Below, piece by piece: positions 28,659-31,774 of a DNA stretch of 32,786 nucleotides. The stretch's first letter is position 1; each line of letters opens with the position of its first letter. The position numbers were made by a program, and so were the translations under genes. The stretch is from Candidatus Poribacteria bacterium. GTDB lineage: Bacteria > Poribacteria > WGA-4E > WGA-3G. Below the pieces are notes generated by a model. That model did not search any database. It saw only the letters and a list, made by a program, of their open reading frames with translations, and was not told the origin of the DNA. The stretch is from the NCBI GenBank assembly GCA_022822085.1, contig JAJECK010000118.1, forward strand, positions 1 through 32,786, in the 5' to 3' direction.

Positions 28659-29249
28659 TCATTCAGGAAATGTAACACGGTCATATATTTCCTGCAAAGG
28701 CACTTCACACTGAATGGAAGTAAGCGGAAGCTGCAAGTTAAATTCTTGATAATATGAAAATATCCATTCATCCATATTTCGCAGATAACGTTCTACATTC
28801 ACCTTATCTTGTGATACAAGGATGTATTCTTGTAGGGATTCAATTTGTCGGTAATGTGAGAATTTTTCGCCTCTATCATACGCTTCTGTTGAAGGAGATA
28901 ACACCTCAATAATAACAATTGGATTTAGGAGAATGTCAAATACATCATCTTCAAAACGTGGTTCATCACAGACAACACCGACATCAGGATAAAAATAGGA
29001 TGAAGTGTGAGGAGAACTGACGCGCATTTCGTTAGCAAAGGTTTCGCAACCACTTCCTTTCAATTGGACATGGAGAGCGGTTGATATATTCATAGTAATC
29101 ACATTGTGTGCAAAACTTGCGCCAGACATTGATATTAATCTCCCTTTGACGTATTCATTTCTAACGGTTTCAGCGTCAGGTATCCACTTACGTTCAAAAG
29201 CGATATATTGTTCAGGTGTGAGGTGTGTCTGGACTCCTACTGTTGTCAT
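28659..29249 (-). CDS. Uma2-family (DUF820) putative restriction-like endonuclease
   Basis: About 196 residues. The start chosen is the ATG at 29247-29249, which has GGAGGGG 5 bases upstream; a TTG four codons earlier would swallow that site. The PD-(D/E)xK core is visible as YPDVGVVCDEP (catalytic Asp) and IEVLSPSTEAYDRGEKFSHYR (Glu and Lys). TPEQYIAFERKWIPDAE and NEYVKGRLISMSGASFAHN are typical of the N-terminus. Uma2 genes are often present in many copies in Poribacteria-like and cyanobacterial genomes, and their cellular role is unclear. It follows the Fic gene on the same strand but has its own promoter. Confidence 0.88.
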   Translation of the reverse strand: MTTVGVQTHLTPEQYIAFERKWIPDAETVRNEYVKGRLISMSGASFAHNVITMNISTALHVQLKGSGCETFANEMRVSSPHTSSYFYPDVGVVCDEPRFEDDVFDILLNPIVIIEVLSPSTEAYDRGEKFSHYRQIESLQEYILVSQDKVNVERYLRNMDEWIFSYYQEFNLQLPLTSIQCEVPLQEIYDRVTFPE

Positions 29250-29278
29250 GATCCCCTCCAATGTTTATTAACATGACT

Positions 29279-29324: not shown

Positions 29325-30452
29325 CTAACTTCTAAAGAGATTAAGGTACTTTTCCAAGACAAAGAGTCTGTTTCGAGAAAATCCTGTTTTCTCTTTTAGT
29401 ATTCCGAGTTCAACCAATAACTTAAGGAGTTGACTGGTACTTGAAAAAACCATTCCTAATTCCTGAGCAGCTGAATTGACATTGATAATTGGTTGTGCAA
29501 ACATAATCCTGAGTAGTTTGTGTGCGTTTTTGGCTCGTGATCCAAGTTTTAGTATCTGTTCTTCATAGTCTTGACGGAGTGATACAATTTCTCGAAATTT
29601 CTCAATACCGTGCTGGGCAGTGTCAATAATTCCATGAAGAAAAAATTCAATCCACTGTTCTAAATCATTAGATGATCTGACAATTGATAACGAATCGTAA
29701 TAGGAGACTCTATGTCTCTCAAAAAAAGTTGACATATACAACACTGGTTTATTCAATATCTGTGCATCAATTAGTTGCAATACAATTAACAATCTCCCAC
29801 ACCTACCGTTACCATCAAGAAAAGGATGGATAGTTTCAAACTGATAGTGCGTAATAGCAATTTTAATCAATATTGGAATCTGTAATGATTGGTTGTGCCA
29901 GAACTTTTCCAAGTCACTCAACAGGTCAGGTACTTCCTCTGGAGATGGCGGTACAAAAAATGCATTAGAAAGTGATGAACCACCGATCCAGTTTTGAATC
30001 TTGCGAATTTCACCAGGAGCTTTGTGTTTTCCGCGTACACCAGAAAGTAAAATATTGTGTGCCTCTTTTAGTAGTCGGATGCAAAGTGGAAGTTCAGATA
30101 ATTTGGCAATTGCGAAATTCGTTGCCCTTATATAGTTTTGCACTTCGTCCCAATCATCGCGTTTCTCTGGATCAATATCCTCTTGAGGCAGCAAAACTTC
30201 ATCAAGTTCTGTCTTCGTCCCCTCAATAAGATTAGAGTCTCGTGCTTCTTTAGCAACGTTCATTTTAATAAAAAAATCAACATCGGGTAATAGTTCTGCA
30301 AATGCGTTTAATTCCCCTAAAACATTCCCTGCCTGTTCTAAGAGAACATTTATTTGTGGATTTTTCCAGACAAAACGGTCATTTATAGGAGAAGGTGTGA
30401 AACTCTTATATTCTTGATGCTGCTTATATTCACCGGCGATGAAACTTTTCAT
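29325..30452 (-). CDS. Fic-family protein (AMPylase-type) with winged-helix C-terminus
   Basis: 375 residues. The Fic core is HPFLDGNGRCGR (209-220), an intact HPFx(D/E)GNGRxxR motif, so it should be able to move AMP or another nucleotide group to a protein hydroxyl. The N-terminal SNLIEG (73-78) matches the (S/T)xxxE(G/N) inhibitory helix, so the protein is probably self-inhibited (class II). PPSPEEVPDLLSDLEKFWHN is the usual flap and linker. The C-terminal 80 residues (NVNSAAQELGMVFSSTSQLLKLLVELGILKEK) form a winged helix-turn-helix, likely binding DNA. The ATG follows GAGAG 9 bases upstream. Tandem 40-bp repeats with dyads begin 18 bp before the start codon and probably serve as operators for self-control. 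Confidence 0.93.
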   Translation of the reverse strand: MKSFIAGEYKQHQEYKSFTPSPINDRFVWKNPQINVLLEQAGNVLGELNAFAELLPDVDFFIKMNVAKEARDSNLIEGTKTELDEVLLPQEDIDPEKRDDWDEVQNYIRATNFAIAKLSELPLCIRLLKEAHNILLSGVRGKHKAPGEIRKIQNWIGGSSLSNAFFVPPSPEEVPDLLSDLEKFWHNQSLQIPILIKIAITHYQFETIHPFLDGNGRCGRLLIVLQLIDAQILNKPVLYMSTFFERHRVSYYDSLSIVRSSNDLEQWIEFFLHGIIDTAQHGIEKFREIVSLRQDYEEQILKLGSRAKNAHKLLRIMFAQPIINVNSAAQELGMVFSSTSQLLKLLVELGILKEKTGFSRNRLFVLEKYLNLFRS

Positions 30453-30470
30453 GTTACGATTCTCTCAATT

Positions 30471-30576
30471 TCCGTAATATAGAATTTTATATTTTGAATT
30501 TTGCTGATTTTCCGTAATATAGAATTTTATATTTTGAATTTTGCTGATTTTTCGTAATATAGAATCCTGTATTTTC
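30471..30576. repeat. 40-bp tandem repeats with internal dyads upstream of the Fic gene
   Basis: Two identical 40-bp units (30471-30510 and 30511-30550) and a third, partial, diverged copy (30551 to about 30576). Each carries an inverted pair AATATA-6-TATATT (30476-30493, 30516-30533, and 30556-30573 with one mismatch). Forty bp is nearly four helical turns, so all dyads face the same side of the DNA. The array ends 18 bp from the Fic start codon. This is the arrangement expected of an operator array for the winged-helix domain of the Fic protein, though it could be a chance duplication. Confidence 0.75.
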
Positions 30577-30724
30577 AAAAACGATAAAAAAGAACACCAA
30601 ACTGACCAATCTCCTACAAGGTGTTAGTATAAAACTTGTGGTAAGTCTCAATGCTTAGGTAATCAACTACATCTATATATCTACGAACACAAATGTGATA
30701 CTTTAGGAATGTGCCAACAGAATC

Positions 30725-31774
30725 TTACCAGTTATCTCTTGTAACATACAATGAACGATTCTCCATCGGAAGTGTGACACGTTGTCCCCCCAAACGACTT
30801 GATTCAATCATACCCATCAACGTTTCTTGGCTGCGACGAGCAAGATGCGCAGGACCCTTTGTCTCTCTGTCTTCATCCAGTGCTTCTGCGATGTCCGTGA
30901 TACCCATCACAGTCCCTGTTGCACGAGATACATCGGGAAACGGAACTTCTTCATAGAATGTCCCCTGTTTCTTACGGAATTGGATTTCCCTGCTGTTATT
31001 TTGGATACGGATTTTACCACCTGTGCCACAGACTTCATATTCGGGGCCAGTACCAGCGGTGTTATATCCGTGGACTCCATTAGAATAACGGATATATCCA
31101 CAGTGTATTCCAGGATCAACATTCAAGCGGTTGCCATCCCAATCCGAGTCGTTACAAGAGATGGTGCCTTGAACAAAGTCAACTTCAGGGTCTTTAGCAA
31201 GAAACAAGAGCATGTCGGCAGCGTGTGTTAATCCCCAGAGTGCAGAACCAGCACCGTATTGTGCTATAGTGCACTGGATATCCCCGATTTCTCCTGCCTC
31301 TACGAGTTCACGCACCTTGCGATAAATCGGCATATATCGACGTTGTGTGCCATAGTTGAATTTGACACCGTGTTTCTCAACAATATCCACTATAGTATCA
31401 GCTTCTTCCATAGAACAGCAGAGCGGTTTTTCACAATAGATACCTTTAACTCCGTTTTCTGCAGCAAAGACGGTAATATCTGCATGTGGTCCGGGACGCG
31501 TTGCAATACACGCTATGTCAGGTTTTTCCTTCTCAATCATCTCCTGATAGTCTGTGTATGCGCGTTCAGCACCGTAGCGTTTACGTATTGTTTCTGCCTT
31601 CTCTTCAAAAACATCGGAAACTGCGATAAGATGTGTTCTTTCACAAGCAACAGCAGCTGCTGCATGTGAGAAAGGTTGCCAAATGAAACTATCGGGACGG
31701 TTTGCTACCTCATCATCAATCGTTGCTCCCATCCGTCCACATCCGATTAGAACGGTCTTATATGTATGTGCCAT
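30725..31774 (-). CDS. Gfo/Idh/MocA-family NAD-dependent oxidoreductase
   Basis: 349 residues. The Rossmann N-terminus is VLIGCGRMGATID (8-20) and the family signature EKP is at 115-117 in YCEKPLCCSMEEAD. HxxD-like catalytic residues are found as LTHAADMLLFLA in the second domain. Family members act on sugars, inositols and other polyols and their amino or acid derivatives. The tract FIWQPFSHAAAAVACERTHL is an insertion after the nucleotide-binding loop. The ATG follows GAGGAGAAAAC, a strong ribosome site. The gene is followed by the 272-bp gap with the Fic operators, so it is likely a single-gene unit. The substrate cannot be read from sequence. Confidence 0.92.
   Translation of the reverse strand: MAHTYKTVLIGCGRMGATIDDEVANRPDSFIWQPFSHAAAAVACERTHLIAVSDVFEEKAETIRKRYGAERAYTDYQEMIEKEKPDIACIATRPGPHADITVFAAENGVKGIYCEKPLCCSMEEADTIVDIVEKHGVKFNYGTQRRYMPIYRKVRELVEAGEIGDIQCTIAQYGAGSALWGLTHAADMLLFLAKDPEVDFVQGTISCNDSDWDGNRLNVDPGIHCGYIRYSNGVHGYNTAGTGPEYEVCGTGGKIRIQNNSREIQFRKKQGTFYEEVPFPDVSRATGTVMGITDIAEALDEDRETKGPAHLARRSQETLMGMIESSRLGGQRVTLPMENRSLYVTRDNW

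Follow-up and report, generated by a model that had tools for sequence, protein, structure and literature searches.

A helically phased array of inverted half-sites upstream of a SoFic-like fic gene of Candidatus Poribacteria, a probable autoregulatory operator

The window, by which we mean the whole stretch of 32,786 nucleotides analysed here, is one whole contig of a 5.63-Mb assembly of a Candidatus Poribacteria bacterium and carries a gene encoding a Fic protein (Table 1). Immediately 3' of fic lies a gene of the Uma2 family (28659-29261, minus strand; in Pfam a putative restriction endonuclease), which also hits the PADLOC candidate models PDC-S03; for E. coli Sofic, a small antitoxin gene is reported downstream (PMC12249575). 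The upstream neighbour, on the same strand as fic, is an oxidoreductase gene that ends at 30725. With the A of the fic ATG at 30452 on the minus strand, the intergenic DNA between the two genes measures 272 bp, and an array of inverted half-sites lies in its fic-proximal 125 bp.

Table 1. The fic gene and the half-site array upstream of it (positions in the window; orientation of each half-site in brackets)
Feature	Position	Strand	Remarks
fic gene, 375 aa	29325..30452	-	Fic_N, Fic domain and C-terminal winged helix; Pfam PF13784, PF02661
Gap between array and start codon, 19 bp	30453..30471	-	from the sequence; putative ribosome-binding site here
Putative operator array	30472..30577		six half-sites, orientations alternating, 18/22/18/22/18 bp; predicted from sequence
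Dyad 1, proximal	30472..30497		half-sites 30472-30479 (-, TATTACGG) and 30490-30497 (+, TATTTTGA)
Dyad 2	30512..30537		half-sites 30512-30519 (-, TATTACGG) and 30530-30537 (+, TATTTTGA)
Dyad 3, distal, diverged	30552..30577		half-sites 30552-30559 (-, TATTACGA) and 30570-30577 (+, TATTTTCA)

The encoded protein has a Fic domain (Pfam E-value 6.1e-20), the fold also found in Doc. Both signatures of class II Fic proteins are present, namely a Fic motif of the form HPFx[D/E]GNGRxxR (HPFLDGNGRCGR, from residue 209) and, N-terminal to the Fic core, an inhibitory helix of the form (S/T)xxxE(G/N), SNLIEG at residue 73, in which S73, I76 and E77 are unchanged in 30 of 30 sequences. An AlphaFold model (pLDDT 93.2) predicts a winged helix at residues 325-365 with a recognition helix at 336-348 that includes Ser337 and Gln341. 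This domain, with structural matches in SoFic and CbFic2, corresponds to the C-terminal HTH of CccR-type autorepressors. An intact Fic motif, the inhibitory helix and a winged-helix C-terminus had all been claimed from the sequence alone, and the present analysis agrees on each of them.

The full-length domain order is that of SoFic from Shewanella (SO_4266; PDB 3EQX, 3ZCN) and of E. coli Sofic. SoFic is both the top structural match (Foldseek, 3zcn) and the top sequence match, yet with approximately 31% identity in the fold alignment. The PADLOC profile for SoFic, a model that has no curated cut-off in that library, matches over its full length (6.5e-116; profile positions 4-359 of 361), and the NCBIfam SoFic equivalog NF046030 gives 188.4 bits, below its cut-off of 550, so we call the protein SoFic-like rather than SoFic itself. 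Its closest named relative, among the best 80 of 585 matches in GTDB species genomes, is a Candidatus Poribacteria protein with 81% identity (locus L039). SoFic is said to have been first shown to act against phages in a screen of 2022. Members of the SoFic type are described as toxins directed against phages, with their control unclear (PMC12249575).

Within the intergenic region, TRF located a repeat at 30469-30565 with a period of 40, 2.4 copies, 98% matches and a score of 187, the runner-up among the 14 rows for the window scoring 53; the two 40-bp copies and partial third copy of the sequence-only reading were thus recovered. That reading had also placed an AATATA-N6-TATATT dyad in every copy, which holds exactly for copies 1 and 2 (30476-30493 and 30516-30533), whereas the third is one base off (AATATA-N6-TGTATT). 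Since comparison with orthologues shows a longer unit, AATATA/TATATT is the inner part of a half-site that reaches further outward (TATTTTGA, TATTACGG). Read outward from the dyad centre, it consists of TATT and then four clade-variable bases, which are ATCA, GTCA and similar in most Poribacterial orthologues and TTGA, ATGA, ACGA or ACGG in the window's own clade. The distances in Table 1 are exact distances between half-site centres, of which 18 and 22 bp add up to the 40-bp period. The label iteron, in its plasmid-replication sense, was dropped, since these repeats consist of inverted half-sites and adjoin a gene for a Fic enzyme.

Across the whole assembly, AATATA-N6-TATATT has six exact sites, two of them in the array; by eye, the remaining ones (L033, L036-L038) have no second copy 40 bp away. 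The wider, 26-bp form of the dyad matches exactly at the two array sites alone, and the 32-base repeat unit has no other occurrence in the genome at up to three mismatches. A match to the 26-base dyad pattern with two mismatches is found, identical, on three G000 contigs (C17:50303, C91:36966 and C104:40168), probably as part of a multi-copy element.

Repeats of this kind could be without function, the product of a chance tandem duplication in AT-rich DNA between genes. The DNA is indeed AT-rich, two of the copies are exact, as if recent, and neither of two comparisons of the window's upstream region with shuffled sequences was significant (best single inverted repeat, p = 0.38; copy number of 10-mers, p = 0.22). 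However, an equal period is found upstream of relatives despite other half-site sequences, and in 19 orthologues the identity from copy to copy is 0.84 at half-site positions versus 0.65 in the rest of the unit, which leaves a chance duplication with next to no credence. The long exact repeat, together with its conservation elsewhere, is beyond chance.

We examined this conservation among Poribacteria, where the protein has a match in 43 of 59 related genomes and, in a search of the phylum, in 47 of 84 genomes at E <= 1e-60. The half-sites of 34 orthologous loci can be placed, with shifts of at most 4 bases, on a lattice with positions at approximately -86, -68, -46 and -28 relative to the start codon. 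The lattice is complete at some of these loci and partial at others, an ATT core being counted at 98 of the 136 positions (34 loci with four positions each; L022 is misframed in this fit). A repeat lag of 40 bp was detected in 71% of the first 21 loci. In a subclade that has a consensus promoter, two clear half-sites remain.

A wider search of GTDB species genomes, from which the best 80 of 585 relatives were retained, provided loci for the first set. Comparing the single best inverted repeat of each locus with shuffles gave a weak signal (p <= 0.05 at 31 of 110 loci, and at 3 of 21 orthologues), and copy counts and lag spectra were used in its place. At least four copies of a ten-mer were present in 34 of 109 upstream regions versus 4 of 297 controls. 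Among the non-Poribacterial loci, 77 of 78 were usable for lag spectra, one being too short upstream; 38% of them showed a lag of 40 and 42% a lag of 41, with other lags at 0-9%. In 300 control windows taken downstream of fic, each of these two lags was seen in 2%.

For the second set, loci were taken from the phyla to which a Bacteroides, a Thiobacillus and a Lachnospiraceae genome belong. Of 158 loci fetched, three had no recognised frame and 10 of the remaining 155 upstream regions were already in the first set, leaving 145, a number that includes one residual duplicate without an array (L137, the same gene as L062) and near-identical rows that were kept, such as L143/L144 and L257/L266. 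Lag 40 was found in 42 and lag 41 in 48 of the 145, versus 2 of 84 and 0 of 84 in control regions (-400 to -200). Lags 30, 31, 51 and 80 were slightly raised (13, 11, 9 and 12 of 145), and the coding-region control peaked at lag 39 (25 of 145), with 0 and 3 loci at lags 40 and 41.

By the criteria used, 66 loci have an array in each set, out of 121 in the first and 145 in the second, so arrays are common and, as far as this detection goes, not universal. Accepted periods were 39-42 and 50-52, with 30-31 added for the second set; start codons of database loci were assigned by rule, and L125 was left out of one analysis as its Fic motif was not matched by the regular expression. Several array-less loci of the first set look GC-rich by eye. 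Arrays occur in Staskawiczbacteria, Planctomycetota, Acidobacteriota, Gastranaerophilales and Verrucomicrobiales, and further in Bacteroidetes groups, Delongbacteria, Lentisphaerae, several proteobacteria and Lachnospiraceae. The letters of the half-site vary between these clades (TTATTTTACTT, TTATTTAAGTT, TTATTTCAATT and TATTTGCA, among others), so that the common period does not reflect shared ancestry of the letters alone. Dyads at 40-bp steps upstream of orthologues had been set beforehand as a check, and they were found, as the lattice within Poribacteria and as the lag of 40-41 bp across phyla.

Individual genomes outside these counts were also inspected. Upstream of fic in Thermus HB8 no half-sites were seen by eye, and Sinorhizobium 1021 has two half-sites alone, in the same orientation. 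The plasmids pAQ6 of Picosynechococcus PCC 7002 (L303) and pSYSX of Synechocystis PCC 6803 (L304) carry similar half-sites, TATTAACG and TATTATCG, upstream of fic genes that sit among toxin-antitoxin genes. Their spacings are 23, 28 and 12 bp, and residue 341 is Arg in PCC 7002 and Lys in PCC 6803; since the scan pattern includes a C at position 8, these two loci are no test of the base-residue code described below.

Spacing was surveyed at the 126 loci for which a half-site consensus was available. Pairs with facing cores are mostly 18-19 bp apart (117 of 155), with a minor class at 27-30 bp (28 pairs), and outward-facing pairs are mostly 21-23 bp apart (110 of 138), with minor classes at 12-13 bp (11 pairs) and 33-34 bp (4 pairs); 23 pairs, 10 core-facing and 13 outward-facing, fall outside all classes. 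The minor classes differ from the main ones by about one helical turn. As the loci had been picked for periods near 40, 51 and 30, the sum of the two spacings is conditioned by the selection, whereas its split is not. This pattern fits a protein that would occupy one face of the DNA. In a subclade (L104, L107, L109, L112, L201 and L203), dyads of 29 bp stand in place of those of 18 bp, with a -10 TATAAT centred on the dyad, as though one turn had been inserted to hold the promoter.

Promoter elements could be placed relative to the half-sites in a number of relatives. A perfect TTGACA-N17-TATAAT is present in 10 of the 34 Poribacterial orthologues, starting at -100 to -109, and the next half-site follows approximately 4 to 12 bases beyond its -10 box. 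At L013, L017 and L127, the -10 box coincides with a lattice position, and of the 16 loci among the 126 that combine a strong promoter match with a dyad, 12 have the -10 inside the array. These positions would suit repression. A sigma-70 scan of the window's intergenic region gave nothing convincing (one match, on the + strand, versus 2.5 expected).

Alternatively, the dyads might function at the RNA level, in the fic mRNA leader, where they would form hairpins or attenuators. The half-sites of the ten orthologues just described lie 3' of the consensus promoter and would therefore be transcribed there, as this explanation needs. However, many departures from the main spacings are steps of about one turn of DNA, the bases of the half-sites co-vary with protein residues, and the window's intergenic region contains no terminator-like site, and we regard an RNA role as very improbable.

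The covariation between half-site bases and Fic residues was analysed by column scans. An earlier Mantel-type window scan had missed the recognition helix (r of 0.17 and -0.03 for windows starting at 331 and 341; best 0.32 at 218), which we think was dominated by phylogeny and by unsure half-site frames, and it was replaced by a common half-site frame and a column scan. Half-sites of the first set were aligned in one frame without protein data, and those of Poribacteria were framed by the lattice rule; frame assignment is uncertain in weak arrays, and the 76-row scan and the 124-row joint set leave out 7 of the 34 Poribacterial loci, which have fewer than two ATT-core half-sites. In the 76-row scan over all protein columns, R341 was the top partner of C at position 8 (C8; 0.97) and K337 that of C9 (0.86), and N337 paired with C7 and P337 with A7 (0.72 each).

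The base-residue rules were written down before the second set was fetched; a frame-score cut of 2.5, which drops 18 of the 66 new arrays and leaves 48, was set later than the rules. Above the cut, the predicted base accompanied its residue in 2 of 2 rows for R341/C8 (versus 0 of 46 rows with other residues), 10 of 11 for K337/C9 (versus 5 of 37), 14 of 15 for P337/A7 (versus 3 of 33) and 4 of 4 for N337/C7 (versus 1 of 44). Over all 66 new arrays, without the cut, the corresponding figures were 4 of 7 versus 3 of 59, 10 of 15 versus 5 of 51, 18 of 20 versus 4 of 46 and 10 of 11 versus 3 of 55. When the 48 arrays were scanned alone, K337 was the top partner of C9 (0.70), P337 headed the listed partners of A7 (0.82) and N337 shared the value for C7 (0.88) with two further columns, R341 being too rare to scan.

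A joint scan of 105 rows, with eight hand-picked Poribacterial loci, over 375 protein columns returned R341, N337, K337 and Q337 as top partners of C8, C7, C9 and C6, all four within the recognition helix. Position 6 maps to this helix for C with Q337 alone, in 4 rows of the joint set, and positions 10 and 11 showed no mapping to it in the column scan. In 124 well-framed rows, R341 and C8 agree in 123, with C8 in 30 of 30 Arg rows and in 1 of 94 others. The one exception is L016, with C8 and Leu341, possibly a recent substitution. Among ATT-core half-sites of Poribacteria, C8 is present in 61 of 66 with Arg341, and among the 32 with Gln341, as in the window, or Leu341, G8 is found 28 times and C8 three times.

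Related rows are not independent, so that Fisher values overstate significance. Phylogeny-corrected pairs were in the predicted direction (same versus opposite, 4:0 for R341, 3.9:0 for N337, 6.6:0.6 for P337 and 1.7:0.1 for K337), in tests that are underpowered and gave no median p under 0.05; an earlier count of independent tree pairs was 3:0 in the same direction. Because the bases of the half-sites follow the residues of the recognition helix, the window's Fic protein very probably binds its own array.

Another transcription factor, encoded elsewhere, could occupy the array while the winged helix contacts the Fic domain instead. The C-terminal domain of E. coli Sofic does affect toxicity, and is reported to regulate it by contact with the AMPylase domain (PMC12249575). 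Against a factor acting in trans, two data sets link the half-site bases to the identity of residues 337 and 341 in the Fic protein encoded next to the array, and exact matches to the full dyad are absent elsewhere in the window's genome, so that no regulon of such a factor is visible there. We consider this explanation improbable.

A described relative, CccR of Yersinia pseudotuberculosis, offers a direct comparison. Footprinting, EMSA and lacZ assays are reported to show approximately 3.3-fold autorepression through inverted AGATAATCAT elements, for which dimerisation is needed; a dimer mutant lost repression and kept toxicity, and the two activities are reported as independent (PMC9755527). 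Like the window's protein, CccR is a class II Fic protein with an N-terminal inhibitory helix and a C-terminal HTH, and its footprint, AGATAATCAT-N26-ATGATAATCT, contains the TGATAAT half-site common to Poribacterial orthologues (PMC9755527). It differs in having a single pair of half-sites whose centres are 36 bp apart as printed, where the window has a repeating 18/22 lattice, in being a secreted effector, and in a back-to-back dimer unlike that of 3EQX (PMC9755527). CbFic2 of Coxiella burnetii (PDB 8CIL) is likewise class II with a DNA-binding C-terminal winged helix, a domain that is predicted in the window's protein; unlike the latter, it is reported with host histone targets, binding to DNA oligomers rather than a defined operator, and a DUF4172 N-terminus (PMC10628234).

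Computation from the data shows the lattice, with its helical phasing and its conservation across phyla, and the covariation of bases with the recognition helix. The tie between an operator-like array and the Fic winged helix, proposed in the sequence-only reading, has gained from the orthologue lattice, from the base-residue covariation and from the existence of CccR (PMC9755527). The further idea of that reading, that transcription may be coupled to AMPylation state, gained no such support, and the CccR dimer mutant that had lost repression was still toxic (PMC9755527). Judged from the sequence comparisons, it is highly likely that the array serves as the operator through which a self-inhibited SoFic-like Fic protein regulates itself; the winged helix of the protein would read the half-sites in negative autoregulation. 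Each half-site would be read by one C-terminal winged helix, and we infer physical binding, cooperativity and a dimer on each half-site pair 18 bp apart with the AT cores facing. Neighbouring dimers, 22 bp further on, would lie on the same face of the DNA and give the 40-bp period. Fic bound to the array would block the fic promoter, and a potentially toxic AMP-transferase would thereby be kept low.

Repression is the most likely sign of this regulation, by analogy with CccR and from the promoters inside the arrays of relatives. Fic might alternatively bind the array to activate, titrate or allosterically control itself, with the DNA as a store or co-factor; the activity of CbFic2 reportedly changes on DNA binding (PMC10628234), and in places six or more half-sites are present, beyond the needs of simple repression. 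Weighed against the approximately 3.3-fold repression by CccR (PMC9755527) and the promoter elements that relatives' arrays overlie, with the -10 inside the array at 12 of 16 loci, such non-repressive binding appears unlikely.

Autorepression by a Fic-HTH protein is already known from CccR; what appears to be new, as far as the open PMC papers listed show, is the iterated, helically phased lattice across phyla and the code. Among the matches listed from the open PMC literature, CccR was the sole Fic protein binding its own operator, papers on phd-doc also matching, and a family-wide lattice with a recognition code for SoFic-like genes was not found among them. The available text of PMC12249575 describes no operator of sofic itself. 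Class II accounts for 80% of Fic proteins (PMC9755527), and if the autoregulatory reading is true, many of them would carry a built-in transcriptional switch, visible from DNA alone through its 40-41-bp lattice and with a predictable half-site. It would also provide a handle on the silencing and release of SoFic-type toxins and a natural data set for a winged-helix code. More speculatively, and with considerable doubt on our part, SoFic-like Fic proteins across phyla may be one-component sensor-repressors, which would form phased multimers on the 40-bp lattice at their own promoters, with a simple 337/341 code that shifts between clades. The lattice would also keep the enzyme stored on DNA in an inactive form, and once the array or the bound state is lost, as might happen under phage attack on the DNA or a change in ATP, the toxin might be freed and the gene turned on.

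One further observation concerns a non-coding stretch near the end of the contig (32150-32560). It contains the phrase 'aggttatgctac', which also adjoins fic in the related loci L008 and L016, and the stretch looks like a dispersed repeat.
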